Of a DNA stretch of 64,000 nucleotides, positions 20,199-44,440 are shown piece after piece. The notes beneath the pieces are model-generated. The model worked only from the letters and a program-made list of their open reading frames with translations, ran no database searches and was not told where the DNA came from. The DNA is from Phyllobacterium endophyticum. GTDB taxonomy: Bacteria; Pseudomonadota; Alphaproteobacteria; Rhizobiales; Rhizobiaceae. The stretch is from NCBI RefSeq assembly GCF_003010935.1, contig NZ_PGGN01000001.1, positions 496,001 to 560,000 of the forward strand, in the 5' to 3' direction. Position numbers and translations under genes: made by a program. Positions within the stretch are counted from its first letter, which is position 1. Each line of letters begins with the position of its first letter.

Positions 20199-20209
20199 AA
20201 GGCTCACGC

Positions 20210-21068: not shown

Positions 21069-21102
21069 GAGATGGTGCGCTGCGAAATAGGGAGTCTAGA
21101 GC

Positions 21103-22638: not shown

Positions 22639-22691
22639 AGTATATTGCGCGGCGTGGACCGGGGTCTGCGCCGTCTCTGGGAGGAGCTGGA

Positions 22692-23774: not shown

Positions 23775-23782
23775 GGGGGACC

Positions 23783-24850: not shown

Positions 24851-24852
24851 CC

Positions 24853-25719: not shown

Positions 25720-25720
25720 A

Positions 25721-27033: not shown

Positions 27034-27041
27034 AAACAATA

Positions 27042-27061
27042 TGCCCGGCACCCGCCGGGCA
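27042..27061 (+). promoter_or_regulatory. Stem-loop in the glpV leader
   Basis: TGCCCGGC-ACCC-GCCGGGCA is a perfect 8-pair stem with a 4-base loop and no T-run. It lies between the DUF2160 and glpV coding regions. Such structures often protect the abundant binding-protein segment of the mRNA. Confidence 0.55.
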
Positions 27062-27097
27062 ATTGACGATGCAATCGCAACTCTGGGAGGACTACAT

Positions 27098-28822
27098 ATG
27101 CGAACGCGATTATTGACAACAACTACAGCCCTCGCGCTGCTGTTTGGCGCAGGCAGCGCCTTTGCCGGCATGGACGAGGCAAAGGCCTTCCTCGACAAGG
27201 AAATCGGCGACATGTCGACCCTTGATCGTGCCGGTCAGGAAAAGGAAATGCAGTGGTTCGTCGATGCGGCAAAGCCCTTTGCCGGCATGGACATCAAGGT
27301 GGTCTCGGAGACCATCACCACGCATGAGTACGAGTCGAAGACCCTTGCCAAGGCGTTCACCGATATTACCGGCATCAAGATCACGCACGATCTGATCGGT
27401 GAAGGCGACGTCGTTGAAAAACTGCAGACACAGATGCAGTCGGGCGAAAACGTCTATGATGCCTATATCAACGACAGCGATCTGATCGGTACCCACTGGC
27501 GCTACCAGCAGGCCCGCAGCCTGACCGACTGGATGGCGAACGAAGGCAAGGACGTCACCAATCCTGAACTCGACATCGACGACTTCATCGGCAAGTCGTT
27601 CACCACTGCGCCGGACGGCAAGCTTTATCAATTGCCCGACCAGCAGTTCGCGAACCTCTACTGGTTCCGTTACGACTGGTTCAACGACGAGAAGAACAAG
27701 GCAGACTTCAAGGCGAAGTATGGCTACGACCTTGGCGTGCCGGTCAACTGGTCGGCCTATGAGGATATTGCCGAATTCTTCACCGGCCGCGAAGTGGACG
27801 GCAAGAAGGTCTATGGTCACATGGACTATGGCAAGAAGGACCCGTCACTCGGCTGGCGCTTCACGGACGCCTGGCTTTCCATGGCCGGCAACGGCGACAA
27901 GGGCATCCCGAACGGCAAGCCGGTCGACGAATGGGGCATCAAGGTGGACGAGAATTCTCGCCCCGTTGGTTCCTGCGTGGCGCGCGGTGGCGACACCAAC
28001 GGCCCGGCTGCGGTCTATTCGATCCAGAAATATCTGGACTGGATGAAGGCCTACGCTCCGGCCGCAGCTCAAGGCATGACCTTCTCCGAGTCGGGTCCGG
28101 TGCCGTCGCAGGGTGAGGTCGCCCAGCAGATGTTCACCTACACCGCCTTCACCGCCGACTTCGTCAAGCCGGGCTTGCCTGTGGTCAATGAGGATGGCAC
28201 GCCAAAGTGGCGTTTCGCCCCGTCGCCGCACGGTGTCTACTGGAAGGATGGCATGAAGCTCGGCTATCAGGACGCCGGATCCTGGACATTGCTCAAATCC
28301 ACCCCGGACGATCGCGCCAAGGCTGCCTGGCTCTATGCACAGTTCGTTACGTCAAAGACCATCGACGTGAAGAAGAGCCATGTTGGTCTCACGTTCATCC
28401 GCCAGTCGACGCTCGATCACAAGTCGTTCACGGACCGTGCGCCTAAGCTTGGCGGTCTGATCGAGTTCTACCGCTCGCCGGCTCGCCTGCAATGGTCGCC
28501 GACGGGTACCAACGTTCCGGATTATCCGAAGCTGGCCCAGCTCTGGTGGCAGGCCATCGGCGATGCGTCCTCAGGTGCAAAGTCCGCCCAGGAAGCCATG
28601 GATTCGCTCTGCTCCGAGCAGGAGAAAGTTCTTGGCCGTCTGGAGCGTTCAGGCGTTCAGGGCGACATCGGTCCGAAACTGGCTGAGGAACATGATCTGG
28701 CTTACTGGAATGCCGATGCTGTGAAAAACGGCAATCTCGCTCCGCAGTTGAAGGTCGAGAACGAAAAGGAAAAGCCCCAGACCATCAACTATGATGAGCT
28801 GGTCAAGAGCTGGAACAAGTAA
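27098..28822 (+). CDS. glpV: Glycerol ABC transporter substrate-binding protein GlpV
   Basis: Periplasmic binding protein of 574 residues, larger than ordinary sugar-binding proteins, as is usual for GlpV. The signal peptide MRTRLLTTTTALALLFGAG ends near SAFA at about 23. The mature protein begins GMDEAKAFLDKEIG and has the family fold, with QMQSGENVYDAYINDSDLIG and many aromatic residues that may line the glycerol pocket. The ATG at 27098 follows a strong GGGAGG. It is the last gene of the operon and is closed by the terminator at 28846. Confidence 0.93.
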   Translation: MRTRLLTTTTALALLFGAGSAFAGMDEAKAFLDKEIGDMSTLDRAGQEKEMQWFVDAAKPFAGMDIKVVSETITTHEYESKTLAKAFTDITGIKITHDLIGEGDVVEKLQTQMQSGENVYDAYINDSDLIGTHWRYQQARSLTDWMANEGKDVTNPELDIDDFIGKSFTTAPDGKLYQLPDQQFANLYWFRYDWFNDEKNKADFKAKYGYDLGVPVNWSAYEDIAEFFTGREVDGKKVYGHMDYGKKDPSLGWRFTDAWLSMAGNGDKGIPNGKPVDEWGIKVDENSRPVGSCVARGGDTNGPAAVYSIQKYLDWMKAYAPAAAQGMTFSESGPVPSQGEVAQQMFTYTAFTADFVKPGLPVVNEDGTPKWRFAPSPHGVYWKDGMKLGYQDAGSWTLLKSTPDDRAKAAWLYAQFVTSKTIDVKKSHVGLTFIRQSTLDHKSFTDRAPKLGGLIEFYRSPARLQWSPTGTNVPDYPKLAQLWWQAIGDASSGAKSAQEAMDSLCSEQEKVLGRLERSGVQGDIGPKLAEEHDLAYWNADAVKNGNLAPQLKVENEKEKPQTINYDELVKSWNK

Positions 28823-28878: not shown

Positions 28879-30042
28879 TCAGATACCGTAGACCTGCAGC
28901 AGGCCCTTCATCCGGTTCACGGCAAGTTCGGGTCTGTCCAGAACATTCGCCTGGTCTGCCAGCCGGAAAATATCCGCATAGTGGACTATGCCGCGTGCCG
29001 ATTGCATGCCGGCCGGCATGGTGAAGTGGCTTTGGTGGCCGTTCAGCCACGCAAGGAACACCACGCCTGCCTTGTAATACTGCGTCGGCGCTTCGAATAT
29101 CTTGCGGGAGAGCGGAACCGTCGGCTCGATGACGGCGCGGAACCCCTCAACTTCGCCTTTGGCCAATAGTGACAAGGCTTTCGAGGCAGACGGAGCCACC
29201 GCATCGAATATACCAAGAAGGGCGTGGCTATATCTCTGGCCATCGCCTTCGATCAATTCGGCATAGTTGAAATCGTCGCCGGTAAAGCAGAGCACTCCCT
29301 CCGGCAGCCGCTTGCGCAATTCGATTTCCTTGGCATTGTCGAGCAGCGAAATCTTGATCCCTTCGATCTTGCCCCTGTTGTCGCTAATGATTGCAAGAAC
29401 TGTCTCCAGCGCCTCCTCGAACGAATGCGAGCCCCAGTATCCGGCGAGTTGCGGGTCGAACATGTCGCCCAGCCAGTGCAGCACGACCTTCTCGCGCGTC
29501 TGGCCCAGGATATGGTTATAGACCGTGCGGTAGTCGTCGGCCGAGCGCGCCACGCGGGTTAGGGCACGGCTGGCCATCATCACCGCCCGCCCGCCCTCCG
29601 CCTCGACAAAGCCGATCTGCGTTTCATAGGCGTCGATCACGTCCTGAAGCGTTCGCGCAATTTGCGGCGACAGCTGGTCGGTTCCGGCGCCGCAGGCAAG
29701 GTCCGCGCCCGCAACTGACCGCGATTCCGCCAGCGAACGGCGAATGAGTTCGCGCGCCGCAGTCCAGTCAACACCCATGCCGCGCTGCGCCGTGTCCATT
29801 GCCTCGGCGATCTTGAACCCGAGCGACCACAGGTGATGACGGAATGCCATGGTTGCATCCCAATCGATTGCGGGTGCGCTCCAGGGCTGGGCGTCGCGCA
29901 ATGGATCGGAAACGACATGGGCGGCCGCATAGGCGATGCGGTTGAAGGCCGGAGGGGCAGGCGGCGCTTCTATCGGGGTGCCCGTCAACGCGTAATCTGT
30001 GATTGCGCCGCTTGCATCCGGCAATTTGATTTTCAGGGTCAT
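28879..30042 (-). CDS. DUF993 (dihydrodipicolinate-synthase-like) protein
   Basis: A 387-residue protein of the DUF993 family, annotated elsewhere as dihydrodipicolinate-synthase-like, which predicts a TIM-barrel aldolase or lyase. Conserved-looking stretches are ACGAGTDQL, the barrel-strand segment VVLHWLGDMFDPQLAGYWG, EGIKISLLDNAKE (a Lys-bearing strand that could provide a Schiff-base lysine) and CFTGDDFNYAEL. The ATG at 30042 is better spaced from GGGGAG than the one at 30048. It is transcribed divergently from the LacI regulator, with the palindromic operator at 30079 just before it, so it belongs to the same regulon as the 1,5-anhydrofructose reductase block. The real reaction is unknown. 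Confidence 0.82.
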   Translation of the reverse strand: MTLKIKLPDASGAITDYALTGTPIEAPPAPPAFNRIAYAAAHVVSDPLRDAQPWSAPAIDWDATMAFRHHLWSLGFKIAEAMDTAQRGMGVDWTAARELIRRSLAESRSVAGADLACGAGTDQLSPQIARTLQDVIDAYETQIGFVEAEGGRAVMMASRALTRVARSADDYRTVYNHILGQTREKVVLHWLGDMFDPQLAGYWGSHSFEEALETVLAIISDNRGKIEGIKISLLDNAKEIELRKRLPEGVLCFTGDDFNYAELIEGDGQRYSHALLGIFDAVAPSASKALSLLAKGEVEGFRAVIEPTVPLSRKIFEAPTQYYKAGVVFLAWLNGHQSHFTMPAGMQSARGIVHYADIFRLADQANVLDRPELAVNRMKGLLQVYGI

Positions 30043-30078
30043 CCGCATCGCTCCCCACAGGAATACATCAACATTAAA

Positions 30079-30092
30079 TTGGAACGATCCAA
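30079..30092. promoter_or_regulatory. LacI operator O1, DUF993 side
   Basis: TTGGAACGATCCAA differs by one base from the perfect palindrome at 30155 and is 37 bases upstream of the DUF993 start codon. The two operator centres are 76 bases apart, close to seven helical turns, which would allow one tetramer to bind both. Confidence 0.75.
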
Positions 30093-30145
30093 AAAACAAG
30101 GGCGAATCCCGAGGCTATCTGCCTTAAGATAATGCAATAAACGGC

Positions 30146-30174
30146 TTGACGAATTTGGAACGTTCCAATTATAT
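30146..30174 (+). promoter_or_regulatory. Promoter of the lacI-afr operon with operator O2
   Basis: TTGACG (30146-30151), 17 bases, TTATAT (30169-30174). The perfect palindrome TTGGAACGTTCCAA (30155-30168) fills the spacer exactly, so a bound repressor would exclude RNA polymerase. Confidence 0.8.
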
Positions 30175-30196
30175 AGATCCCAGTGGAGGATTTCCG

Positions 30197-32232
<2,036 letters not shown>

Positions 32233-32247
32233 GAGAATGAAACTAGC

Positions 32248-33849
32248 ATGAACAAGCACATCACCCCCGAAGAGGCCGCGAACCTCATCCCCGACGAAGC
32301 GATCGTTTCGGTATCGTCTTCGAGCGGCCTCGGCTGTCCGGATCGGATGCTGAAAGCCATCGGCGATCGTTTCGATGCGACCGGCCATCCGCGCGATCTG
32401 ACGACGCTGCATCCGATAGCGGCGGGAGATATGAGCGGCATCAGGGGTGTCGACCACATCGCCAGGAAGGGCCTCTTGAAGAAAATCATCGGCGGCTCCT
32501 ATCCGTCAGGTCCTTCGAGTTCCGAACCGCCCCTGATCTGGCAAATGATCGGCAATGACGAGGTTGCTGCCTATAATATTCCGTCCGGCATTCTTTTCGA
32601 CATGCATCGCGAGGCCGCCGCAAAACGTCCGGGCGTGTTCACCAAGGTGGGTCTTGATACGTTCGTCGATCCTGACCGGCAGGGCTGCGCCATGAATGCG
32701 TCAGCTGCCGCGGATCCTGTTGTTCGCAAGGTCGAATTCGGCGGCGAGGAATGGCTGTTCTTCAAACCCATCATCCCTCAGGTCGCGATCATCCGCGCCA
32801 CCACGGCCGACGAGCGCGGCAATCTCACCTACGAGCACGAAGGCGCCTATCTTGGCGGGTTCGATCAGGCGCTCGCGGTGCGAAACAATGGCGGAATCGT
32901 CATCGCGCAGGTCAAGCGCATCACCAAGAGCGGTTCCATGAAGCCGCACGATGTGCGCGTTCCCGGTATCCTTGTTGATTACGTCGTGGTTGACCCCGAC
33001 CAGAAACAGACCACGCAAACGCTCTATGATCCCGCTATTTCCGGCGAGATTTTTCATCCGCTCGAAGACTTTGCGCTTCCGGACTTCAACATCCAGAAAG
33101 TCATTGCGCGCCGCGTCGCCACGGAACTCGAAGCCGGCAGCGCCGTCAATCTTGGCTTCGGCATTTCGGCAAACGTGCCGCGTATCCTGCTTGAGGAAGG
33201 CCTGCACGGCGCGGTCAGCTGGGTGATCGAACAGGGGCCGGTCGGGGGTATCCCGCTGCTCGACTTTGCCTTCGGTTGTTCTTCCAACGCGGAGGCCTTT
33301 GTGCCGTCGCCGCATCAGTTCACCTATTTCCAGGGTGCCGGTTTCGATGCCTCGCTGCTGTCATTCCTTGAGATCGACGCATCGGGGTCCGTCAACGTGT
33401 CGAAACTCAGCTTCCGTCCGCACGTGACGGCCGGGGCCGGCGGCTTTGTCGATATCACCGCAAGGGCACGCAAGATCGTGTTCTCCGGCATGTTCAATGC
33501 CGGCGCGAAGGTACATGTCGAGGATGGTAAGCTGGTCATCGAGAAGGAAGGCAAGTTGAAGAAGCTCGTCAGGCAAGTCGAGCACGTCACCTTCTCTGGC
33601 CGCCGTGCCGTCGAGCAGGGCCAGGATATCACCTATGTCACCGAGCGCTGCGTCATGGTTCTTCGGCCGGAGGGTGTAGTGCTGACGGAAATCGCCCCTG
33701 GCGTCGATCTGCAGGCGCATGTTCTCGATCAGTCGGAATTCCCGCTCATCGTCGCGCCCGATCTCAAAGTGATGGATGCGCAACTTTTCGCACCGCAGCC
33801 TCTTGGCCTGAAGCTGCCGCAGAAACCGCAAAGGACGCTCCATGGCTGA
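32248..33849 (+). CDS. Family I CoA-transferase (acyl-CoA:acetate/3-ketoacid type)
   Basis: A 533-residue single-chain CoA-transferase with fused alpha and beta halves, like propionate CoA-transferase and YdiF. It moves CoA from an acyl-CoA to a free acid through a glutamyl-CoA intermediate. The probable catalytic residue is Glu328 in WVIEQGPVGG. The glycine-rich GFGISANVP loop in the beta half and GAGGFVDITARARK near the C-terminus are as expected. It starts 15 bases after afr and overlaps the crotonase gene by eight bases. It should activate a carboxylic acid made in this pathway; which acid cannot be told. Confidence 0.9.
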   Translation: MNKHITPEEAANLIPDEAIVSVSSSSGLGCPDRMLKAIGDRFDATGHPRDLTTLHPIAAGDMSGIRGVDHIARKGLLKKIIGGSYPSGPSSSEPPLIWQMIGNDEVAAYNIPSGILFDMHREAAAKRPGVFTKVGLDTFVDPDRQGCAMNASAAADPVVRKVEFGGEEWLFFKPIIPQVAIIRATTADERGNLTYEHEGAYLGGFDQALAVRNNGGIVIAQVKRITKSGSMKPHDVRVPGILVDYVVVDPDQKQTTQTLYDPAISGEIFHPLEDFALPDFNIQKVIARRVATELEAGSAVNLGFGISANVPRILLEEGLHGAVSWVIEQGPVGGIPLLDFAFGCSSNAEAFVPSPHQFTYFQGAGFDASLLSFLEIDASGSVNVSKLSFRPHVTAGAGGFVDITARARKIVFSGMFNAGAKVHVEDGKLVIEKEGKLKKLVRQVEHVTFSGRRAVEQGQDITYVTERCVMVLRPEGVVLTEIAPGVDLQAHVLDQSEFPLIVAPDLKVMDAQLFAPQPLGLKLPQKPQRTLHG

Positions 33850-34621
33850 TCCTCGTATCGAAGTCACCTTTGCCGGGCACATCGCGACAATCACCGTGTC
33901 GCGACCGGAAAAGCTCAATGCCCTCGACCTCGACATGTTGAAGCAACTGGACGCTGCATGCGATGCGTTGGAAACCAATGCGCAGGTGCGGGTCGCGATC
34001 CTCACCGGCGCCGGCAAGGCATTTTCCGCAGGCGGCGATATCAAGGCCTGGGCGGCGATGACGCCCAATGAGTTCGGCCATGCCTGGGTGCGCTTCGGCC
34101 ACCGTGTCTTCGAGCGTCTGGCTACCTTGCGCGTGCCGCTCATTGCCGCTCTCAACGGCCATGCGCTCGGCGGGGGTCTCGAACTCGCCGCCGCTGCCGA
34201 TATTCGCATCGCCGAAACGCAGATAAGGCTCGGCCTGCCGGAAACCGGCCTCGGCATGGTGCCCGGCTGGTCCGGTACCCAGCGCCTCGTCCGGCGTTTC
34301 GGTGCCCAGATCGTACGTCGCATGGTCCTGGGCGGTGAAGTTTTCAGCGCTGCCGAAGCCCGGTCATTTGGCCTTGTCGATCATGTGGCGGAAACCGGGG
34401 ATGCACTGGCCACGGCGCAAGCCTATGCGGAGCGGGTCGCCAGGCGCGGCCCGGCGGCCGTGGAGGTGGCAAAACTGATGATCGCTTCAGCCAATGCCGA
34501 AGATAATGGAACGGCGGTCGAGGCTCTGGGCTCGATCCTCGTGGCAAAAACTGCGGACCTCAAGGAAGGTGTTTCGGCCTTTGCCGAAAAGCGCGAGCCC
34601 GTGTTCAAGGGAGAATGGTAA
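33842..34621 (+). CDS. Enoyl-CoA hydratase/isomerase (crotonase) family protein
   Basis: Crotonase-fold enzyme of 259 residues. The oxyanion-hole segments are FSAGGDIKAW (62-71) and NGHALGGGLELA (105-116). Both glutamates used by true hydratases are present, E114 and E134 (GLPETGLGMVPGWSGTQRL), so hydration of a 2-enoyl-CoA is a reasonable expectation. It overlaps the CoA-transferase gene by eight bases and shares one base with the aldehyde dehydrogenase start (TAATG). This tight coupling suggests the three proteins act on consecutive intermediates. Substrate chain unknown. Confidence 0.92.
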   Translation: MADPRIEVTFAGHIATITVSRPEKLNALDLDMLKQLDAACDALETNAQVRVAILTGAGKAFSAGGDIKAWAAMTPNEFGHAWVRFGHRVFERLATLRVPLIAALNGHALGGGLELAAAADIRIAETQIRLGLPETGLGMVPGWSGTQRLVRRFGAQIVRRMVLGGEVFSAAEARSFGLVDHVAETGDALATAQAYAERVARRGPAAVEVAKLMIASANAEDNGTAVEALGSILVAKTADLKEGVSAFAEKREPVFKGEW

Positions 34622-36129
34622 TGACAGTTCTGGTGCGGCCACAGGCACTCGAAAATTTCAAGGTGCGCGAATTCCAGATGCTCATCGATGGCAAATGGAC
34701 CGATGGCGCGGAAGGCGGCGTCATCGAGCGCAGGAGCCCCGGTCATGGCGTGGCGGTCTCGCGCTATCAGGCAGGGACGAAGGCAGACGCGGAAAGAGCA
34801 ATCACCGCCGCGCGCCGTGCTTTCGACGATGGCCACTGGTCAAGAATGACCGGCGCCGAGCGTTCGAACATCATTCTCAAGGCTGCCGATCTCATCGCCG
34901 CACGTTCGGGTGAACTCGCCTATCTCGATTGCATCGAATCCGGCAAGCCGATCTCTCAGGCCAAGGCCGAACTCGGTGGCGCTGTCGACATCTGGCGCTA
35001 TGCGGCTGCGCTCGGCCGCGATTTGCATGGAGAAAGTTACAACACGCTTGGCGACACCACTCTGGGCGTGGTGCTGCGCGAGGCAATCGGCGTAGTCTCG
35101 ATCATCACCCCCTGGAACTTCCCATTCCTGATTGTAAGCCAGAAGCTGCCTTTCGCCCTCGCGGCCGGTTGTACGACCGTGGTCAAGCCGTCGGAACTGA
35201 CATCAGGTTCAACGCTGGTGCTTGGTGAAATCCTCCTCGAAGCCGGTGTTCCGGCCGGCGTGGTCAATATCGTCACCGGTACGGGCGCGGAGGTCGGGGC
35301 GCCGATGACAGTTCATCCGGACGTCGATATGGTTTCCTTCACCGGCTCGACGCTCGTTGGCAAGCTGACCATGGCAAACGCCGCGCAGACCTTGAAAAAA
35401 GTCTCGCTGGAACTTGGCGGCAAGAACCCGCAGATCGTGTTTCCCGATGCCAATCTCGATGATTTCATCGATGCGGCGGTTTTCGGTGCCTATTTCAACG
35501 CCGGCGAATGCTGCAATGCCGGTTCTCGCCTCATCGTCCATCGTGACATTGCCGATGAGGTCGTAAAGCGCGTTGCCGCGCTGGCAGGCGAGGTCAGGGT
35601 CGGAGATCCCCTTGATCCGCAAACCAAGGTCGGCGCAATCATCTCACCAGAGCACCTCGCCAAGATCAGTACCTATGTCAGCAACGCGGCGACGGCCGGA
35701 GCCCATGTAAGCCATGGCGGCGAGACTCTCGATCTCGGCATGGGGCAGTTCTTGTCGCCGACAATTCTTTCCGCCGTTCAGCCGGATATGGCAGTGGCGC
35801 GGGAAGAAGTGTTCGGGCCGGTTCTGTCTGTGCTAACATTCGAGACGCTTGACGATGCCGTCTCGATCGCAAATTCCATCGACTACGGATTATCGGCCGG
35901 CGTCTGGAGCCGGGACTTCGATACGTGTCTCACAGTGGGTCGCCGTGTGCGCGCCGGCACCATCTGGATGAACACGTTCATGGATGGAGCCTCGGAGCTG
36001 CCCTTCGGCGGATACAAGCAGTCTGGTCTCGGCCGTGAACTCGGCAGGCATGCGGTGGAGGATTACACCGAAACCAAGACACTGAACATGCACATGGGTA
36101 GGAGGAAAGTAGTATGGTCACGCAGTTAA
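34621..36129 (+). CDS. NAD(P)-dependent aldehyde dehydrogenase
   Basis: A 502-residue aldehyde dehydrogenase. The motif PWNFPFL near the cofactor site, FTGSTLVG, the general base E264 in LELGGKNP and the nucleophile C298 in NAGECCNAGSR are all present, as is the C-terminal EVFGPVLSVL block. The ATG at 34621 is preferred (GGAGAA upstream, TAATG coupling) over the ATG two codons earlier. It resembles betaine-aldehyde/gamma-glutamyl-aldehyde type enzymes but the substrate is open. Its product, a carboxylic acid, could be the substrate of the co-transcribed CoA-transferase; this is inference. Confidence 0.94.
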   Translation: MTVLVRPQALENFKVREFQMLIDGKWTDGAEGGVIERRSPGHGVAVSRYQAGTKADAERAITAARRAFDDGHWSRMTGAERSNIILKAADLIAARSGELAYLDCIESGKPISQAKAELGGAVDIWRYAAALGRDLHGESYNTLGDTTLGVVLREAIGVVSIITPWNFPFLIVSQKLPFALAAGCTTVVKPSELTSGSTLVLGEILLEAGVPAGVVNIVTGTGAEVGAPMTVHPDVDMVSFTGSTLVGKLTMANAAQTLKKVSLELGGKNPQIVFPDANLDDFIDAAVFGAYFNAGECCNAGSRLIVHRDIADEVVKRVAALAGEVRVGDPLDPQTKVGAIISPEHLAKISTYVSNAATAGAHVSHGGETLDLGMGQFLSPTILSAVQPDMAVAREEVFGPVLSVLTFETLDDAVSIANSIDYGLSAGVWSRDFDTCLTVGRRVRAGTIWMNTFMDGASELPFGGYKQSGLGRELGRHAVEDYTETKTLNMHMGRRKVVWSRS

Positions 36130-36236
36130 ATCGATTGTAATAGCCATTCTGCCTATTGTATGAATGCCCCGGACCTTAGGGCACCTTCGGTCGGATATTT
36201 AAAATCTTATCTCTTTTTTCTCATGGGAGGACTATT

Positions 36237-37484
36237 ATGAAAAAGCTGATGAATACTGTTGCCGCTGCAGCGATGCTGCTCGGAACAGCAACGATGGCCC
36301 GCGCGGCCGAAAACGTCGAGGTCCTGCATTGGTGGACCTCCGGCGGCGAAGCCACGGCGCTGGAAGTGCTCAAGAAGGATCTCGAAACAAAGGGCATCAC
36401 CTGGTCCGACATGCCGGTTTCCGGCGGTGGCGGTACTGAAGCCATGACCGTTCTGCGTGCCCGCGTAACCGCTGGCAACCCGCCGACGGCCGTACAGATG
36501 CTCGGTTTCGACATCACCGACTGGGCGAAACAGGGTGCCCTCGGTAATCTCGATGAAGTTGCTGCCAAGGAAAAGTGGGACGACGTGATCCCGACCGCCC
36601 TGCAGAAGTTCTCGAAATATGACGGCCACTGGATCGCAGCACCCGTCAACGTGCACTCGACCAACTGGATCTGGATCAACAAGGCGGCTCTCGACAAGGC
36701 CGGCGGCAAGGAGCCTGCGAACTGGGACGAGTTGATCGCTCTTCTCGACAATTTCAAGGCGCAGGGCATCACTCCAATCGCTCATGGCGGTGTGCCATGG
36801 CAGGACGCGACGATCTTCGATGCTGTCGTCCTTTCTCTCGGCACTGACTTCTACAAGTCGGCTTTCATCGATCTCGATCCCGCTGCTCTCGGCAGCGACA
36901 AGATGAAGGAAGCCTTCGACCGCATGACCAAGCTGCGTACCTATGTGGATGACAATTTCTCCGGTCGCGACTGGAATCTTGCTTCCGCGATGGTCATCGA
37001 AAACAAGGCAGGTCTGCAGTTCATGGGTGACTGGGCCAAGGGCGAATTCATCAAGGCTGGCAAGGTGCCAGGCAAGGATTTCGTCTGCATGCGCTTCCCG
37101 GGCACCCAGGGTTCCGTCACGTTCAATTCGGACCAGTTTGCCATGTTCAAGGTCAGTGACGCACAGCTCAAGCCGCAGCTCGTCATGGCGTCGGCCATTG
37201 AAAGCCCGACCTTCCAGTCAGCCTTCAATGTCGTCAAGGGTTCCGCCCCTGCGCGTACCGATGTTCCGGATACTGCCTTCGACGATTGCGGCAAGAAGGC
37301 CATCAAGGATCTTGCCGAAGCCAACAAGGCTGGCACGCTCTTTGGATCGATGGCCCATGGCCATGCCAATCCGGCTGCTGTCAAGAACGCGATCTACGAC
37401 GTCGTGACCCGTGAGTTCAACGGCGACCTGACCTCGGAAGAAGCAGTCAAGGAACTCGTTTCGGCTGTTGAAGCCGCAAAATAG
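36237..37484 (+). CDS. Sugar ABC transporter substrate-binding protein (glucose/mannose GtsA-like)
   Basis: Periplasmic binding protein of 415 residues. The signal peptide [20 protein letters not shown] is cleaved near ARA at 23. The mature start [18 protein letters not shown] and the [26 protein letters not shown] segment are typical of the glucose/mannose-type (Gts) binding proteins. GGGAGG lies before the ATG. A 107-base gap after the aldehyde dehydrogenase probably contains a separate promoter. A strong stem-loop follows the stop codon. The mixture of sugar oxidoreductases around it suggests an unusual sugar or anhydro-sugar ligand, though glucose itself is possible. Confidence 0.93.
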
Positions 37485-37495
37485 GTTCGGCCATT

Positions 37496-37523
37496 CTGTC
37501 CGGGGCTACATTGCCCCGGACAG
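37496..37523 (+). promoter_or_regulatory. Strong intercistronic stem-loop after the binding-protein gene
   Basis: CTGTCCGGGGC-TACATT-GCCCCGGACAG forms a perfect 11-pair GC-rich stem with a 6-base loop and no T-run. It starts 12 bases after the binding-protein stop and should stabilise that mRNA segment or partly terminate, giving more binding protein than permease. Confidence 0.75.
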
Positions 37524-37578
37524 GTTCCCCGCGACAGGGATCGCGGCAACATGAAGTAAAATTTCGAGGGGTGAGGCT

Positions 37579-38457
37579 ATGGATGCCCGCAGCCGCATAC
37601 AGGACCTGATACCGAAACTGGTATTGGGACCGAGTTTTCTGATCGTCCTGATTTTCGTATATGGCTTCATCGCCTACACCGGCATCCTGTCCTTTACCGA
37701 CAGCAAGATGCTGCCATCCTATGGCTTCGTAGGGTTTGAAAACTACCGCAAGCTCTGGGCGCTGCCGCATTGGTGGCGGGCGATCACCAATCTCGGAATT
37801 TTCGCTTCGCTCTATATCATCGTCTGCACCGTCATCGGCCTCGGGCTTGCCATTCTGCTCGATCAGAAGATCCGCATCGAGGGCTTTCTGCGGCCGGTCT
37901 ATCTCTATCCCATGGCGCTTTCGTTCATCGTCACGGGCGTCGCCTGGAAGTGGTTTCTCGATCCCGGCATCGGTCTTGAAAATACCATGCACCAGTGGGG
38001 CTGGGAGAGTTTCCGCTTCAACTGGATCAAGGATTCGAAGATGGCGATCTATACGGTGGTCATCGCCGCCGTCTGGCAATCTTCCGGCTTTGTCATGGCC
38101 ATGTTCCTTGCGGGTCTGCGCGGTGTCGACAACGAGATCATCAAGGCTGCCCAGATCGACGGCGCTTCGACCGGAACCATCTATCGCCGCATCATCATCC
38201 CGCTGATGCGCCCGGTTTTCCTGTCCGCCTTCGTCGTCCTCGCACATCTTGCGATCAAGGCCTACGACCTTGTGATCGCGCTGACCGGCGGCGGACCGGG
38301 CCAGGCTACCGAATTGCCCGCGACGTTCATGTATTCCTATACGTTCACCCGCAATTCCATGGGCATCGGCGCCTCGTCGGCCATCATCATGCTGATCATG
38401 ATCTTCTCGATCATCGTTCCCTATCTCTACTCGGAAATAAGAGGGGGCAACAAATGA
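37579..38457 (+). CDS. Sugar ABC transporter permease (GtsB-like)
   Basis: Permease of 292 residues with six membrane segments (first: LVLGPSFLIVLIFVYGFIAY). The EAA loop EIIKAAQIDGASTGTIY is followed by IIIPLMRPVFL. It overlaps the next permease by four bases (ATGA). First permease of the importer whose binding protein is at 36237. Confidence 0.93.
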   Translation: MDARSRIQDLIPKLVLGPSFLIVLIFVYGFIAYTGILSFTDSKMLPSYGFVGFENYRKLWALPHWWRAITNLGIFASLYIIVCTVIGLGLAILLDQKIRIEGFLRPVYLYPMALSFIVTGVAWKWFLDPGIGLENTMHQWGWESFRFNWIKDSKMAIYTVVIAAVWQSSGFVMAMFLAGLRGVDNEIIKAAQIDGASTGTIYRRIIIPLMRPVFLSAFVVLAHLAIKAYDLVIALTGGGPGQATELPATFMYSYTFTRNSMGIGASSAIIMLIMIFSIIVPYLYSEIRGGNK

Positions 38458-39335
38458 GTGGCCAGAGCCCGGACAATGCGATTTCCAGCGGCAGGCTGAC
38501 ACGCGTTCTGATCTACGCGGCGTTGCTGCTATTCGCCTTCTACTACCTGTTGCCGCTCTATGTCATGCTGGTCAATTCCCTCAAGCCACTCGAGGAAATC
38601 CGCCAGGGCGGCATGCTGTCGCCGCCGCGCGAATGGACCATCCAGCCTTGGCTTACCGCCTGGTCGACGGCGCAGATCGGCGTGCAACCCACGGGTCTGA
38701 GGCCCTATTTCATCAATTCGATCCTGATGGTCGTGCCTGCGGTCGCCATCTCCACTGTCGTCGGCGCTCTCAATGGCTATGTCCTGACCAAATGGAAATT
38801 CCGCGGCTCCAACCTGATGTTCGGCATGCTGCTGCTCGGCTGCTTCATCCCGTTCCAGATCGTGCTCATTCCGATGGCGCGCATGCTCGGGCTGCTCGGC
38901 ATGGCCGGTACGATCCAGGGGCTGATCCTCGTCCATATCGTCTATGGGCTCGGTTTCACCACCCTCTACTTCCGCAATTATTACGAGGCGTTCCCGACCG
39001 AGCTCGTTCGCGCGGCGCAGATCGACGGTGCGAGTTTCTTCCAGATATTCCGCCGTATTCTTTTGCCCTCGTCAGGACCGATCATCGTCGTCTCCGTCAT
39101 CTGGCAATTCACCAATATCTGGAACGACTTCCTGTTCGGTGCCTCCTTCTCCGGCTTTTCGAGCACGCCCATGACGGTAGCGCTCAACAACCTCGTCAAC
39201 TCGTCGACCGGGGTCAAGGAATATAACGTGCATTTCGCCGGCGCCATTCTCGCGGCGCTGCCAACTCTCATCGTCTACATCGTTTCCGGACGCTATTTCG
39301 TCCGCGGCCTCATGTCCGGCGCCGTGAAGGGATAA
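38454..39335 (+). CDS. Sugar ABC transporter permease (GtsC-like)
   Basis: Second permease, 293 residues. The first membrane helix is at VLIYAALLLFAFYYLLPLYV, and the EAA loop ELVRAAQIDGASFFQIF leads to ILLPSSGPII. The ATG at 38454 overlaps the previous stop; the much longer open frame starting at 37995 reads through the upstream permease in another frame and is not real. It is followed after four bases by the ATPase gene. Confidence 0.93.
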   Translation: MSGQSPDNAISSGRLTRVLIYAALLLFAFYYLLPLYVMLVNSLKPLEEIRQGGMLSPPREWTIQPWLTAWSTAQIGVQPTGLRPYFINSILMVVPAVAISTVVGALNGYVLTKWKFRGSNLMFGMLLLGCFIPFQIVLIPMARMLGLLGMAGTIQGLILVHIVYGLGFTTLYFRNYYEAFPTELVRAAQIDGASFFQIFRRILLPSSGPIIVVSVIWQFTNIWNDFLFGASFSGFSSTPMTVALNNLVNSSTGVKEYNVHFAGAILAALPTLIVYIVSGRYFVRGLMSGAVKG

Positions 39336-39339
39336 ATCA

Positions 39340-40458
39340 ATGTCATTTCTCAAGATCAAAGACCTGCACAAATCCTACGGCAACGTGCCGATCCTCAAGG
39401 ATATCAACATCGAGATCGATGAGGGCGGTTTCCTCGTGCTCGTCGGTCCGTCCGGCTGCGGCAAGTCGACATTGCTCAACACGATCGCCGGGCTGGAGCC
39501 GATCACCTCGGGCGATATATCCATCAACGGCAAGTCGATCAGTGGACTGCATCCCTCCAAGCGCGATATCGCCATGGTGTTCCAGTCCTATGCGCTTTAT
39601 CCGAACATGACCGTCGGCGGAAACATCGCCTTCGGCATGGAAATCCGCGGTGTGCCGAAGCCCGAACGGGACAAGGCCATCAAGCAGGTCGCCGACATGC
39701 TGCAGATCGGCCATCTGCTCGAGCGCAAGCCGAGCCAGCTTTCCGGCGGCCAGCGCCAGCGTGTCGCCATGGGCCGCGCGCTCGTTCGCAACCCGCAGGT
39801 GTTCCTGTTCGACGAACCGCTCTCCAATCTCGATGCCAAGCTGCGTGTCGACATGCGCACGGAGATCAAGCGCCTGCACCAGCGTATGAAGACCACCATC
39901 GTCTACGTCACGCACGACCAGATCGAGGCGATGACGCTGGCCAGCAAGATCGCGGTTCTGAAGGATGGCGTGTTGCAGCAGTTCGGCACGCCTGCCGAGA
40001 TCTACAATAATCCGACCAACCTCTTCGTTGCCGATTTCATGGGTTCTCCCGCCATGAACCTCCTCAAGGCAAGGATCGAGGGCGGCGCTTCCGACCTTCA
40101 GGTCGTGCTTGAAAGGCCCGATGCGGCGCCTCTGCGCCTGCCGGTCAAGAAGACCAACAGCGCGCTTCTCGGCTATGCCGGCAAGGATGTCACCTTCGGC
40201 ATACGTCCGGAAGCCTTGACCGATCCGGACGGCGCGGACCGCAATGCCGGATCGCTGGTGGAAGGCGAGTGCCTGATCGAAGTGGTGGAGCCAGCGGGCT
40301 CCGATACGTTCGCGGTCACCAAGCTCGGCGGCAAGGAAGTGGTTGCCCGCCTGCGTGCGGATGCGCAAATCGTTCCCGGTCAGAAGACGCAGCTCGCCTT
40401 CAACCTGGACAAGGCAGTGTTCTTCGATCCGCAGTCGCAATTGCGTATCGGCGCCTGA
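39340..40458 (+). CDS. Sugar ABC transporter ATP-binding protein (MalK/UgpC type)
   Basis: ATPase of 372 residues for the Gts-like importer. It has Walker A GPSGCGKST, signature LSGGQRQRVAMGRAL, Walker B VFLFDEPLSNLDAK, H-loop YVTHDQIEAM and a TOBE-type C-terminal domain (VTFGIRPEAL). All catalytic motifs are intact, unlike the GlpS/GlpT pair. It completes the importer operon and is followed after 26 bases by the first GMC oxidoreductase, so transport and oxidation genes are probably co-transcribed. Confidence 0.96.
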   Translation: MSFLKIKDLHKSYGNVPILKDINIEIDEGGFLVLVGPSGCGKSTLLNTIAGLEPITSGDISINGKSISGLHPSKRDIAMVFQSYALYPNMTVGGNIAFGMEIRGVPKPERDKAIKQVADMLQIGHLLERKPSQLSGGQRQRVAMGRALVRNPQVFLFDEPLSNLDAKLRVDMRTEIKRLHQRMKTTIVYVTHDQIEAMTLASKIAVLKDGVLQQFGTPAEIYNNPTNLFVADFMGSPAMNLLKARIEGGASDLQVVLERPDAAPLRLPVKKTNSALLGYAGKDVTFGIRPEALTDPDGADRNAGSLVEGECLIEVVEPAGSDTFAVTKLGGKEVVARLRADAQIVPGQKTQLAFNLDKAVFFDPQSQLRIGA

Positions 40459-40484
40459 AACGCAGCCATGGACGGTGAATGCTC

Positions 40485-42008
40485 ATGAGCCACGAGTTAC
40501 AACCGGCCACAGCCGCAGATATCGTAATCATCGGATCGGGCATAGGCGGCGCGACCATGGCGGCAGGGCTTGCCGCCTCCGGGGCGAATATTCTCATCCT
40601 TGAAGCCGGCGATCATTTGCCCGATCGCCCGGAAAATCGCGATCCGCGGGCGATCTTCCAGCGCGGCTTCTTCCGCCCCCTCGAAAACTGGTACGACGAG
40701 ACCGGCAGCGCCTTCAATCCCGGCAATTATTACAATGTGGGCGGCAATTCCAAATTCTACGGGGCGGTGCTGACGCGCTATCGCTCCGAGGATTTCGAGG
40801 AAATGCAGCATCTTGAGGGCGTGTCGCCCGCCTGGCCTTTCCCCTATGAGGAACTGGAGCCGTGGTATGGCAAGGCTGAAGCGCTGTTTCAGGTCCGTGG
40901 GAAACTGGGCGAGGACCCGACCGAACCGCTGCACTCCACTCCCTATGCTTTCCCTCCGGTTCCTGACGAAGCGCCGATCGCTGCCCTGCGGGAGCGGCTG
41001 ACGACGGCGGGCGTCCACCCCTCGACCCTGCCGCTTGGCGTCGATATCGAGACGTGGCTGTCGCATGGAAAGACGCCGTGGGACGCGCATCCCAACAGCC
41101 ATAACGGCAAGATGGATGCCGAGACCACGGCCCTCGCGGCCGCGCTCAAGCACGGGAATGTCAGTCTGCAGACGAATTCCCGCGTCACGCGCCTGCAGGC
41201 TGCGCCGGACGGCAAGACCATCGCCGCCGTGCATTACGAAAAGGACGGCAGAACCTATGCCATCAAACCCCGGCTTGTCGTCCTTTCCGCCGGTGCCGTC
41301 CAGTCGGCTGTGCTGCTGTTGCGTTCCGCCGATGATGCCAACCCTGCCGGACTGGCCAATCGGTCCGACCAGGTGGGGCGCAATTTCATGAATCACAATC
41401 TCTCCGCTGTCATCGGTTTCGATCCGCGCTTTTGCAATGATTGCGTTTATCAGAAGACGCTCGGCTTCAACGACTTCTATCTCTCCGATGGCAGGGGCGG
41501 GGCTCCCCTCGGCAATGCACAATTGCTCGGGCGGATAAGCGGCCCGGTGCTGAAGTCCGACCTGAAATTCGTGCCGGAGTGGATGCTCGACCGCTTCTGC
41601 GCCCACACGGTGGATTTCCTGGCGATGAGCGAGGATGTCCCGAAGCCGGAAAGCCGCGTTCGCGTCGATGGCGACAGGATCATCCTTGAATGGATCCGCA
41701 GCAATTGGCCTGCGCACCTGAAGCTGGTTGCGCAGATCAAGTCGGTGCTACGCGCTGCCGGGTTTCCGCTGGTATTGTCCAAGGCTTTCGACCGGAAGAC
41801 CCCGTCGCATCAATGCGGCACGGTCCGCATGGGTGAGGACCCGGCAAAGGCGCCGCTCGACATCTATTGCCGCGCCTATGAGCATCCCAATCTTTTTGTG
41901 GTCGATGCTGCCTTCCTACCAACCTCCGCAGCTGTCAATCCGGCGCTGACCATTGCGGCGCAGGCATTGCGTGTGGCGGATCACATCGTTTCGAAGGAAC
42001 TGGCATGA
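40485..42008 (+). CDS. GMC-family FAD oxidoreductase 1
   Basis: Glucose-methanol-choline flavoprotein of 507 residues. The N-terminal FAD motif IVIIGSGIGGATMAAGLAAS is followed by the E of LILEAGD. The catalytic His/Asn pair is H442 (SHQCGTVRMG) and N485 (AAVNPALT), 43 residues apart as in active members. The C-terminal NLFVVDAAFLPTS pattern recalls pyranose 2-oxidase and the flavin subunits of sugar dehydrogenases more than choline dehydrogenase. The ATG at 40485, six bases after GGTGA, is preferred over the one at 40479. No signal peptide is seen. It may oxidise a sugar hydroxyl, perhaps at C2 or C3; inference. Confidence 0.9.
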   Translation: MSHELQPATAADIVIIGSGIGGATMAAGLAASGANILILEAGDHLPDRPENRDPRAIFQRGFFRPLENWYDETGSAFNPGNYYNVGGNSKFYGAVLTRYRSEDFEEMQHLEGVSPAWPFPYEELEPWYGKAEALFQVRGKLGEDPTEPLHSTPYAFPPVPDEAPIAALRERLTTAGVHPSTLPLGVDIETWLSHGKTPWDAHPNSHNGKMDAETTALAAALKHGNVSLQTNSRVTRLQAAPDGKTIAAVHYEKDGRTYAIKPRLVVLSAGAVQSAVLLLRSADDANPAGLANRSDQVGRNFMNHNLSAVIGFDPRFCNDCVYQKTLGFNDFYLSDGRGGAPLGNAQLLGRISGPVLKSDLKFVPEWMLDRFCAHTVDFLAMSEDVPKPESRVRVDGDRIILEWIRSNWPAHLKLVAQIKSVLRAAGFPLVLSKAFDRKTPSHQCGTVRMGEDPAKAPLDIYCRAYEHPNLFVVDAAFLPTSAAVNPALTIAAQALRVADHIVSKELA

Positions 42009-42772
42009 GGAAACCAGTCGCCATCGTAACGGGCGCTCGCCGCGGCATTGGCTTAGGCATAGCAGAAGCCTTGGCGTCGCAGGGCTTCGACCTCGCGATC
42101 ACCGACATTGTCGATGACGACGCCAGTCAATCGGCAATCGAGACGCTCGAGAAGCTTGGTGCCAGGGCCATCTTCATCCCGTCGGATATAGCTGACCTTT
42201 CAAGCCATTGCGCAACAGTCGAGACCGCCATCGCAAAATTCGGCCAAATCGATTGCCTTGTCAACAATGCCGGTATCGGCTCCAAAGTCCGGGGAGATTT
42301 CATTGATCTTGAGCCAGCTAACTACGATGCAATTTTTAACATCAATCTGCGCGGAACTGTGTTTTTCACCCAGGCAGTATTAAGAATGATGCTGGCGCAA
42401 AAGCAGACGTCCCGTCCGCGTTCGATCATCAACATCACGTCTGTTTCCGCCGCGATGACCTCGCCGGAACGGCTCGATTACTGCATGACGAAGGCGGCTT
42501 TGGCTGCCTTCACCCAGGGCCTCGCCCTGCGCCTGGCGGATCAGGGCGTCAGCGTCTTCGATGTGCGCCCCGGCATTATCCGTTCCGATATGACTGCAGT
42601 CGCTGCGGCGAAATACGACAAGCTTATCGCTGAAGGCCTGGTGCCGATGAAACGCTGGGGCGAGCCGGAAGATCTCGGCCGCATCGTTGCCGCACTCGCC
42701 AGCGGCGACTTCAACTTCGCCACCGGCTCCGTCATCAATGCCGATGGCGCTCTTTCGATAGGCAGGCTTTAG
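42005..42772 (+). CDS. SDR oxidoreductase (3-ketoacyl-reductase-like)
   Basis: Classical SDR of 255 residues. It has TGARRGIG at the cofactor site, D38 after the second strand, NNAG, an ITSVSA serine and YCMTK (Tyr, Lys). Proteins of this type are often labelled 3-ketoacyl-ACP reductase, but no acyl-carrier genes are nearby. The start overlaps the GMC gene by four bases and a second GMC gene follows 12 bases after its stop. It could interconvert the alcohol/ketone of the sugar oxidised by the GMC enzymes. Confidence 0.9.
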   Translation: MRKPVAIVTGARRGIGLGIAEALASQGFDLAITDIVDDDASQSAIETLEKLGARAIFIPSDIADLSSHCATVETAIAKFGQIDCLVNNAGIGSKVRGDFIDLEPANYDAIFNINLRGTVFFTQAVLRMMLAQKQTSRPRSIINITSVSAAMTSPERLDYCMTKAALAAFTQGLALRLADQGVSVFDVRPGIIRSDMTAVAAAKYDKLIAEGLVPMKRWGEPEDLGRIVAALASGDFNFATGSVINADGALSIGRL

Positions 42773-42784
42773 AGGCTCGATACG

Positions 42785-44440
42785 ATGACCTACGACTACA
42801 TCATTACTGGCGCTGGACCGGCTGGTTGCGTTCTTGCCAATCGCCTGAGCGAAGATCCTCAAGTATCCGTGCTGCTTCTCGAAGCGGGCGGCGGAGACTG
42901 GAACCCGCTTTTCCATATGCCTGCGGGTTTCGCCAAGATGACCAAGGGCGTCGCCAGCTGGGGCTGGGAAACCGTGCCGCAAAAGCACATGAAAAATCGT
43001 GTGCTTCGCTACACGCAGGCAAAGGTCATCGGCGGCGGATCGAGCATCAACGCCCAGCTTTACACGCGCGGAAATGCAACCGACTACGATTTGTGGGCGA
43101 GCGAGGATGGTTGCAAAGGCTGGAGCTATCGCGATGTCCTGCCCTATTTCAAACGGGCGGAGGACAATCAGCGTTTTGCCGACGATTATCATTCCTATGG
43201 CGGGCCGCTAGGCGTTTCCATGCCCGCTGCCACCTTGCCGATCTGCGATGCCTATATTCGTGCCGGTCAGGAGCTTGGCATACCCTATAATCATGATTTC
43301 AACGGCAAGACACAAGGCGGGGTCGGCTTCTACCAGTTGACGCAGCGCGACCGCCGCCGGTCGTCCGCATCGATGGCCTATCTCTCTCCTGTCAAGGATC
43401 GGCAAAACCTGACCGTCCGCACCGGCACGCAAGTTTCCAGGATCGTCGTGGAACGCAAGAAGGCGATCGGCGTCGAAACCATCCGCAATAATATGCGCGA
43501 GATCATCCTGGCCAATCGCGAGGTGCTGGTGACGTCAGGCGCAATAGGCTCGCCCAGGCTTCTCCTGCAATCGGGCATAGGTCCCGCAGATCATTTGAAG
43601 AGTGTCGGTGTTCCGGTGGTGCATGATCTGCCCGGCGTCGGCGAGAACATGCAGGACCATCTAGACCTGTTCGTCATTTGCGAGTGTACCGGCGACCATA
43701 CCTATGACGGTGTCGCCAAGCTGCATCGTACCCTGTGGGCCGGGCTGCAATATGTGCTGTTCCGGTCGGGCCCGGTCGCTTCGAGCCTCTTCGAGACTGG
43801 CGGTTTCTGGTATGCCGATGACAAGGCGCGCTCGCCCGACATCCAGTTTCATCTCGGCCTTGGATCGGGAATCGAAGCGGGTGTCGAACGGCTGAAGAAC
43901 GCCGGTGTGACGCTCAACTCCGCTTATCTGCATCCCCGTTCGCGCGGCACCGTTCGGTTGCAATCGGCTGATCCATCTGCGGCACCGCTCATCGATCCGA
44001 ACTACTGGAGCGATCCGCACGATCGGAAGATGTCGATCGAGGGGCTGAAGCTCGCACGCGAAATCATGAGCCAGGCCGCGTTGAAGCCCTTTGTCATGGC
44101 GGAGCGCCTGCCGGGGCCGAAATACAATACGGACGAGGAGCTTTTCAACTATGGCTGTGCCAATGCCAAGACCGATCATCACCCGGTCGGAACTTGCAAG
44201 ATGGGCTCCGATGCGATGGCTGTCGTAGGTCTTGACCTCAAGGTTCGCGGGCTTGAAGGCTTGCGCGTCTGCGACAGCTCGGTCATGCCGCGCGTCCCCT
44301 CATGCAACACCAATGCACCGACGATCATGATGGGCGAAAAAGGTGCGGATATCATCCGTGACCTGCCGCCGTTGCCGCCAGCGATCTTTTCCAACGAAAT
44401 GAATGAAAAACGCCCGCGGGCTCGGGCAGATATTCGCTGA
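42785..44440 (+). CDS. GMC-family FAD oxidoreductase 2 (choline-dehydrogenase-like)
   Basis: GMC flavoprotein of 551 residues. It has TGAGPAGCVLANRLSED with LLLEAGG at the FAD site, the second signature VIGGGSSINAQLYTRGN and the GAIGSPRLLLQSGIG block. The catalytic residues are H466 (HPVGTCKMG) and N510 (NTNAPTIMMGE). It is closer to alcohol/choline dehydrogenases than the other GMC protein in this operon. Choline-pathway partners (betB, betI, choX) are absent, so a primary alcohol from the sugar-linked pathway is a likelier substrate. The C-terminal tail, rich in Arg and Asn, runs right up to repeat copy B. Confidence 0.91.
   Translation: MTYDYIITGAGPAGCVLANRLSEDPQVSVLLLEAGGGDWNPLFHMPAGFAKMTKGVASWGWETVPQKHMKNRVLRYTQAKVIGGGSSINAQLYTRGNATDYDLWASEDGCKGWSYRDVLPYFKRAEDNQRFADDYHSYGGPLGVSMPAATLPICDAYIRAGQELGIPYNHDFNGKTQGGVGFYQLTQRDRRRSSASMAYLSPVKDRQNLTVRTGTQVSRIVVERKKAIGVETIRNNMREIILANREVLVTSGAIGSPRLLLQSGIGPADHLKSVGVPVVHDLPGVGENMQDHLDLFVICECTGDHTYDGVAKLHRTLWAGLQYVLFRSGPVASSLFETGGFWYADDKARSPDIQFHLGLGSGIEAGVERLKNAGVTLNSAYLHPRSRGTVRLQSADPSAAPLIDPNYWSDPHDRKMSIEGLKLAREIMSQAALKPFVMAERLPGPKYNTDEELFNYGCANAKTDHHPVGTCKMGSDAMAVVGLDLKVRGLEGLRVCDSSVMPRVPSCNTNAPTIMMGEKGADIIRDLPPLPPAIFSNEMNEKRPRARADIR

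Follow-up and report, generated by a model that had tools for sequence, protein, structure and literature searches.

1,5-Anhydro-sugars are very stable ring compounds that arise from starch and glycogen. Because a 1,5-anhydrohexitol lacks an anomeric carbon, its breakdown can begin neither with a glycosidase nor with a simple opening of the ring. Here we present a gene cluster of Phyllobacterium endophyticum, contained in a 64,000-nucleotide stretch of contig NZ_PGGN01000001.1 (forward strand, 496,001 to 560,000; hereafter the window), in which a gene for 1,5-anhydro-D-fructose reductase (AFR) stands with genes for a coenzyme A (CoA) transferase, a crotonase, an aldehyde dehydrogenase (ALDH), a sugar importer, two GMC flavoproteins (GMC1 and GMC2), a short-chain dehydrogenase (SDR) and a DUF993 protein. 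Judged from gene comparison, the cluster has roughly an even chance of serving the import and aerobic catabolism of 1,5-anhydrohexitols (1,5-anhydroglucitol and/or 1,5-anhydrofructose) by way of a CoA-activated ring opening to 2-keto-3-deoxy-D-gluconate (KDG).

The closest described system is the anhydrofructose catabolism of Sinorhizobium morelense (Kuhn et al. 2006, as summarised in PMC12441222), in which, as predicted for the window, a reductase from the Rhizobiaceae makes anhydromannitol. The route differs in continuing by C1 hydroxylation to mannose, and the summary names no CoA-transferase or crotonase. An anaerobic route through 1,5-anhydroglucitol 6-phosphate (Ma et al. 2024, as summarised in PMC12441222) degrades the same sugars but needs phosphorylation and an oxygen-sensitive glycyl-radical enzyme, a type of protein that does not occur among the Pfam matches of the cluster. 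According to that review, no oxidative pathway for 1,5-anhydroglucitol has been described (PMC12441222). The open-access literature that we searched yielded no paper coupling AFR to CoA chemistry. The statement of a preliminary description of this stretch, that no described pathway joins these genes, has to be narrowed, since a published account already has Rhizobiaceae converting anhydrofructose to anhydromannitol and proposes another continuation (PMC12441222).

Parts of the chemistry proposed here have parallels outside anhydro-sugar metabolism. In carnitine metabolism a CoA-transferase of family III, CaiB, and a crotonase, CaiD, dehydrate a beta-hydroxy acid as its CoA ester; the logic of the pair would be common to both systems, whereas the transferase of the cluster belongs to family I (PF01144) and its proposed substrate is a sugar acid. 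In polyuronate breakdown, polysaccharide lyases make a C4=C5 enol ether from uronates, which unsaturated glucuronyl hydrolase then converts to KDG, so that the type of enol ether and the end product match those of the proposed route, while the polyuronate version does without CoA. The oxidative deoxyribonate pathway likewise ends with a CoA-transferase and glycerate kinase, and uses the beta-keto acid cleavage enzyme DUF849 instead of a crotonase or DUF993.

The substrate class, an anhydro-sugar, is well supported through AFR, because this is the sole member of the cluster with a close characterised relative. The window protein shares 242 of 333 residues with 4koa and 236 of 331 with 2glx, a full-length closeness to two proteins deposited as 1,5-anhydro-D-fructose reductase, the second of which we take to be the enzyme of the S. 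morelense strain. Its close homology to characterised enzymes predicts that it reduces anhydrofructose, and of the substrates suggested earlier, an anhydro-sugar or a glycoside, the anhydro-sugar is on this ground the likely one. Among the named loci, the AFR relatives closest to that of the window come from Phyllobacterium.

Linkage of AFR to the CoA-transferase supports the proposed route. We gathered 69 distinct named AFR loci with patterns drawn from AFR alone, and surveyed 397 genomes of the order for AFR orthologues (E 1e-80) and the CoA-transferase (E 1e-150). Of the 69 named loci, which span several phyla, 68 hold the CoA-transferase, and in 67 its start lies no more than 300 bases past AFR. 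Across the 397 genomes AFR occurs in 41, the CoA-transferase in 59 and both in 37 (Fisher test, p ~4e-32, kinship ignored); 34 of the 41 AFR places have a CoA-transferase no farther than 3 kb away and 23 have DUF993 within 16 kb. Neither AFR nor DUF993 was found near 13 of the 64 CoA-transferase places. The genes grouped together in the preliminary description are thus not chance neighbours. The named loci also hold at least 59 crotonase, 56 ALDH, 56 binding-protein, 50 GMC1, 54 DUF993 and 59 LacI genes, these being lower bounds set by score cut-offs and by the shortness of several loci. Where 9.9 kb of downstream DNA was available (60 loci), SDR was found in 8 and GMC2 in 10, low counts that do not mean absence, since the 10 kb flank ends before these genes in most loci.

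Ten of the loci are non-proteobacterial by record title, all metagenome-assembled: four from Chloroflexota (L188, L189, L190, L196), three from Bacteroidota/Rhodothermales (L191, L192, L195), two from Verrucomicrobiota (L193, L197) and one from Actinomycetota (L201), the last having AFR without the CoA-transferase. Eight of the other nine keep the spacing of at most 300 bases, and in the ninth, L193, GMC1 lies between the two genes. Two Rhodothermales genomes (L195; L192 with L206) share the order AFR, CoA-transferase, crotonase, GMC2, ALDH, binding protein, two permeases and GMC1, with no DUF993 or SDR within the sequenced stretch compared. This recurring order points to one linear pathway acting on the sugar skeleton.

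The CoA enzymes keep the residues that a CoA-dependent hydration or dehydration needs, which we count as support for the proposed route. Glu328 of the CoA-transferase, presumably the catalytic glutamate by reference to YdiF, is kept in 39 of 39 aligned sequences and in six distant ones; together with the PF01144 domain it places the protein in family I. Glu114 and Glu134 of the crotonase, which we take from rat enoyl-CoA hydratase to be the catalytic positions, are kept in 37 of 37 aligned sequences and in five distant ones, as in the hydratase type. After filtering by length, these alignments comprise every one of the 38 CoA-transferases detected and 36 of the 40 crotonases, with the window protein added to each set. 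A comparison of the crotonase with phage records (three best of 28 at 37-38 % identity) was uninformative. The nearest solved relatives of GMC2 are choline dehydrogenase and a chloramphenicol-inactivating oxidoreductase, enzymes that oxidise primary alcohols.

In the route we propose, the ABC importer would bring in the anhydro-sugar, and GMC1 would oxidise 1,5-anhydroglucitol at C2 to 1,5-anhydrofructose, which AFR would reduce to 1,5-anhydro-D-mannitol with C2 inverted. GMC2 and ALDH would oxidise the primary alcohol at C6, giving 2,6-anhydro-D-mannonate. The CoA-transferase would form the acyl-CoA and so make H5 acidic, the crotonase would remove water from C5-H and C4-OH to leave an enol ether, and hydration of the enol ether would produce a hemiketal opening to KDG. 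SDR would then oxidise KDG, and DUF993 would split the product into pyruvate and a three-carbon compound, either glycerate or glyceraldehyde, to be taken up by glycerate kinase. With a locked ring that lacks an anomeric carbon, CoA-transferase and crotonase would stand in for the customary sugar-acid dehydratase. Such a CoA-activated ring opening is the simplest predicted scheme we found that employs every conserved gene, and in it the probable substrate of the CoA enzymes is the anhydro-sugar acid. Stereochemistry, derived by hand, would suit the scheme: in the gluco and manno chairs H5 and O4 lie on the same face, an arrangement favourable to the syn elimination typical of crotonases. By Fischer projection, anhydromannitol fits D-erythro KDG as product, and anhydroglucitol processed without AFR would give the L-threo isomer; the D-manno configuration made by AFR would thus explain why the pathway includes the reductase. 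Other substrates considered, namely branched-chain sugars and polyethylene-glycol-like ethers, were dismissed by reasoning alone.

Hydration of the enol ether could be catalysed by the crotonase itself, by a small barrel protein of the Dabb or SnoaL type in relatives, or by a homologue of unsaturated glucuronyl hydrolase in Chloroflexota. Two Chloroflexota clusters, L196 and L190, encode GH88 proteins that are 79 % identical to each other. The gene directly follows the crotonase in L196; in L190 a 202-residue open frame without Pfam match stands between crotonase and GH88 and overlaps the GH88 gene by 4 bases. Five of eight solved matches of the GH88 protein are named unsaturated glucuronyl hydrolase, unsaturated chondroitin disaccharide hydrolase or GH88, the other three being 'putative uncharacterized protein gbs1889', and the match to 1vd5 has E 3e-55. 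Both catalytic aspartates of unsaturated glucuronyl hydrolases are present, one of them recognisable as the residue changed in 2ahf. Enzymes of this kind add water to C4=C5 enol ethers. In the Rhodothermales locus L206, GMC1 is followed by a SnoaL-like small protein, and a Dabb protein is present in some Alphaproteobacteria clusters; that either could be an enol-ether hydratase is speculation.

DUF993, found in 116 of the 397 genomes, has a TIM-barrel fold with the topology of the DHDPS/NAL class I aldolases. Lys249, a candidate for the Schiff-base lysine that these aldolases carry on strand 6, is conserved and lies on the strand after His208-Trp209; the position of their strand-5 tyrosine appears to be taken by His/Trp. 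Membership of PF00701 itself was not found: four DUF993 proteins gave PF06187 only, at E values up to 10, and a profile comparison with PF00701 proteins of the same genome gave a probability of 5 %, a weak test that used five such proteins, several of them longest frames that are perhaps not the gene, and left out a sixth. A CoA-transferase is found within 16 kb at only 40 of the 120 DUF993 places. Fold and distribution together make DUF993 look like a downstream carbon-carbon cleaving step, and they render doubtful its earlier assignment as a partner of AFR on the keto-sugar. The Rhizobium CCGE531 locus (L105) has no DUF993 or SDR in its stretch and holds instead a KDG-kinase-like PfkB gene and an FBP-aldolase gene, the former with a relative in L118; the window genome also encodes KDPG aldolase. 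That the cluster encodes a complete aerobic pathway, with CoA-activated opening of sugar rings across several phyla and DUF993 as a new class I aldolase branch acting on an oxidised 2-keto-3-deoxy acid, is a tentative proposal, somewhat short of an even chance. A full-text search of open-access papers found none on DUF993. Beside DUF993 in another locus, a gene annotated 'ThiF family' (L101:11122-11946) has as its Pfam match the shikimate-dehydrogenase substrate-binding domain.

The cluster is real, conserved and, at its core, regulated as one unit. Two copies of the operator stand in the window, a perfect palindrome, TTGGAACGTTCCAA, before lacI and a copy with one mismatch before the divergent DUF993, as the preliminary description had it. 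With up to 2 mismatches 0.12 matches are expected in the window, yet two matches also arose in 2 of 100 shuffles. At the same tolerance an operator lies within 260 bases upstream of lacI in 25 of 34 related lacI rows, a few of which overlap because they come from a single genome. Of the 69 named AFR loci, some with little or no upstream DNA, 58 have an operator no more than 1.7 kb ahead of AFR. We counted 76 sites in 1.95 Mb of partly overlapping loci; 66 of the 74 that were placed lie within 450 bases before lacI, DUF993, AFR, the CoA-transferase or the binding protein, nine of them before AFR alone. None of the ten non-proteobacterial loci showed the operator; two of them, L189 and L196, start at AFR. 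The copy of the cluster in the gammaproteobacterium Motiliproteus (L194) carries the same operator sequence, which suggests that genes and regulator sites were transferred together. The idea of one regulated cluster is supported, the operator recurring at lacI and AFR of relatives, with a qualification for the importer: there is no operator copy in the 107-base gap before the importer genes, and several relatives have a second, divergent lacI there. In these genomes the importer and GMC part may have its own regulator.

The related loci fall into several types. Type I has the whole set and comprises the window, R. daejeonense (L092), Microvirga (L103), S. meliloti Ak57 (L126), Peteryoungia (L097) and, in part, Roseibium (L096). 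Its extras are Dabb and glycerate kinase in L092, L097 and L103 and glycerate kinase in L126; counting all loci with type I genes, a glycerate-kinase homologue occurs in eight (also L073, L085, L109 and L117). Type Ib, without DUF993 or SDR in the stretch, is represented by L105 and partly by L113, L118 and L119. L105 adds a Gfo/Idh/MocA gene and an SdhA/FrdA-like flavoprotein to its PfkB and FBP-aldolase genes, and the other three have one to three of these four. L118 and L119 are without AFR, as are five further genomes whose CoA-transferase is 82-84 % identical to that of the window. Type II (R. anhuiense L093, S. meliloti pSymA L094, Paracoccus L098, Sagittula L100, Janthinobacterium L104) keeps DUF993, SDR, CoA-transferase, crotonase, ALDH and a GMC gene and adds acyl-CoA dehydrogenase, aldo/keto reductases and another importer. 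Electron-transfer flavoprotein genes are seen in some type II loci and a ribose-type importer in most; a literature search on the pSymA locus names gave nothing useful. Type III, represented by Nitratireductor (L099), Erwinia (L102) and further loci, pairs DUF993 with a GfoIII dehydrogenase; none of its 33 rows has the CoA-transferase and 19 have an enolase-superfamily gene, whose product is a possible alternative dehydratase. Loci such as L099, L053 and L045 combine DUF993 with a Gfo/Idh/MocA dehydrogenase, xylose-isomerase-like and enolase-superfamily proteins and sometimes a tripartite tricarboxylate transporter, and probably serve sugar-acid degradation.

Several observations weigh against the proposed route, every step of which rests on gene comparison. 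AFR lies away from the CoA-transferase in seven of its 41 places; three of these genomes (G337, G322, G203) have the CoA-transferase elsewhere and four (G042, G147, G228, G015) have none at E 1e-150. Conversely, seven genomes (G332, G188, G023, G336, G385, G396, G281) hold a CoA-transferase 82-84 % identical to that of the window and no AFR at E 1e-80; of the four whose stretches were examined, two (L118, L119) have a levoglucosan-dehydrogenase-like gene. Type II has CoA-transferase, crotonase, ALDH, a GMC gene and DUF993 and is without AFR or GMC1 in the stretch, so that this set does not belong to anhydrohexitols alone. All non-proteobacterial loci come from metagenome-assembled contigs. The GH88 gene occurs in only 2 of the 69 loci and in none of the other loci examined. 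The window cluster has neither GH88, Dabb nor glycerate kinase, which leaves enol-ether hydration with no assigned enzyme here; the one MOFRL gene of this genome (5.5 Mb, 12 contigs) lies at C4:1143970, about 600 kb from the cluster. The KDG-kinase match of L105 is below the curated cut-off (250 against 400 bits), and GMC1 may oxidise either C2 or C3. Lastly, the anhydromannitol of S. morelense is proposed to become mannose through an unidentified P450-like hydroxylation at C1 (PMC12441222), and our scheme does not explain mannose.

If the published route held for the window, AFR would make 1,5-anhydromannitol, an oxygenase encoded outside the cluster would hydroxylate C1 to yield mannose, and the CoA genes would serve another compound of the regulon. 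The report of the mannose route for S. morelense (PMC12441222) speaks for it, as do a single P450 in the window genome (C4:750410) and the relatives that keep the CoA genes without AFR. We nonetheless regard it as unlikely: the P450 and the cluster are about 210 kb apart, no gene annotated for mannose use lies in the five annotated type I clusters, and the pairing of AFR with the CoA-transferase in several phyla makes an unrelated role of the CoA genes improbable. In three stand-alone AFR loci (L106, L108, L110) the Pfam matches of nine proteins showed no recognisable mannose pathway either.

Closer to the preliminary description is a glycoside route, in which GMC1 and AFR act on the sugar while GMC2, ALDH, CoA-transferase and crotonase degrade the alcohol or acid released from it. 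The gene families do fit a sequence from alcohol through aldehyde and acid to CoA ester, and type II relatives add acyl-CoA dehydrogenase and, in some, electron-transfer flavoprotein genes. Yet nothing inside the five type I clusters with annotation is labelled a glycosidase or thiolase, the plasmid gene tables being incomplete by their own account; the Chloroflexota GH88 homologue fits an enol ether rather than an aglycone, and the Rhodothermales order suggests a linear route. The assignment of the CoA enzymes to a released acid is therefore not sustained, and the glycoside route as a whole seems improbable. A 3-keto route, with oxidation at C3 by GMC1, ring opening by beta-elimination beside the ketone and cleavage of the keto acid by the CoA enzymes, has in its favour that GMC1 may act at C3 and that the Gfo/Idh/MocA gene of type Ib is levoglucosan-dehydrogenase-like (306 bits against a cut-off of 650). 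On chemical grounds, however, an elimination next to a 3-ketone would need no CoA activation, and AFR, whose characterised relatives act on a 2-keto group, would be left without a clear role, which makes this route quite improbable.

By their numbering, SMc04393-04400 presumably belong to the S. meliloti copy of the cluster. By its number, smc04396, given as induced by dextrin in PMC4960864, is probably the binding-protein gene of that copy, and such induction would fit a sugar derived from alpha-glucans. SMc04390-04392 are listed in PMC12542648 as a sorbose-dehydrogenase-like protein, an SDR and a dehydrogenase, which is compatible with the order GMC2, SDR, GMC1 in L126.

All genes named in the preliminary description were found (Table 1), and the tight coupling it reported is confirmed at the ATGA overlap of lacI and afr (31231-31234), the 8-base overlap of CoA-transferase and crotonase (33842-33849) and the TAATG junction of crotonase and ALDH (34619-34623); afr and the CoA-transferase are separated by a 15-base gap with no overlap. 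The two permease genes overlap by 4 bases, as do GMC1 and SDR. DUF993 more likely starts at the ATG at 30042, giving 387 residues, because most of the 120 homologues listed have 386-390; for lacI we infer a TTG start at 30197.

Table 1. Features of the cluster, with positions counted in the 64,000-nucleotide window
Feature	Position	Strand	Remarks
DUF993 protein, DHDPS/class I aldolase fold	28879..30042	-	PF06187; divergent; longest open reading frame up to 30099
Operator copy 1, TTGGAACGATCCAA	30079..30092		1 mismatch to palindrome; before DUF993
Operator copy 2, TTGGAACGTTCCAA	30155..30168		perfect palindrome; before lacI
LacI-family regulator	30197..31234	+	PF00356, PF13377; start inferred
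afr, predicted 1,5-anhydro-D-fructose reductase (AFR)	31231..32232	+	73 % and 71 % identity to 4koa and 2glx
CoA-transferase, family I, YdiF-like, single chain	32248..33849	+	PF01144, 95.5 bits; YdiF 2ahu, 393 bits
Crotonase / enoyl-CoA hydratase family	33842..34621	+	PF00378; top solved match 5zai (3-hydroxypropionyl-CoA dehydratase)
Aldehyde dehydrogenase (ALDH)	34621..36129	+	PF00171, 558 bits; second ATG; longest open reading frame from 34615
ABC solute-binding protein	36237..37484	+	PF01547
ABC permease 1	37579..38457	+	PF00528
ABC permease 2	38454..39335	+	from translation; L092 homologue annotated carbohydrate ABC transporter permease
ABC ATPase, MalK type	39340..40458	+	PF00005, PF17912
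GMC1 flavoprotein	40479..42008	+	PF05199/PF00732; 8hdd, 7w2j (FAD glucose/fructose dehydrogenase large subunits)
SDR, PRK12745 family	42005..42772	+	NF009386, 365 bits (cut-off 250)
GMC2 flavoprotein, choline-dehydrogenase-like	42785..44440	+	PF00732/PF05199; 9lq0, 8b7s

Directly upstream, at 20177-28822, lies a putative glycerol-type importer operon, with a DeoR regulator gene and, by Pfam, genes for two ABC ATPases, a pair of permeases and a large binding protein; the binding-protein gene also adjoins the cluster in Phyllobacterium loci. An Rfam scan found one tRNA only, and the repeats listed for the region were uninformative and did not include the operators. Elsewhere in the same genome a second AFR-like gene (45 % identity; G000:C6:649298-650284, L122) has neighbours that resemble ALDH, GMC2 and importer genes (44-59 %) and with them forms a paralogous cluster. 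On Bradyrhizobium diazoefficiens pNK6a (L095), AFR and GMC1 (61 % each) form a lone adjoining pair beside an MFS permease among plasmid transposases.

The accumulation of 1,5-anhydroglucitol 6-phosphate causes the neutropenia of glycogen storage disease type Ib (GSDIb) and of G6PC3 deficiency, and the cluster is a direct candidate for the aerobic breakdown of 1,5-anhydro-sugars. If the proposed pathway is true, it would provide the first functional frame for DUF993, and CoA-activated dehydration would join the ways in which bacteria open locked sugar rings.

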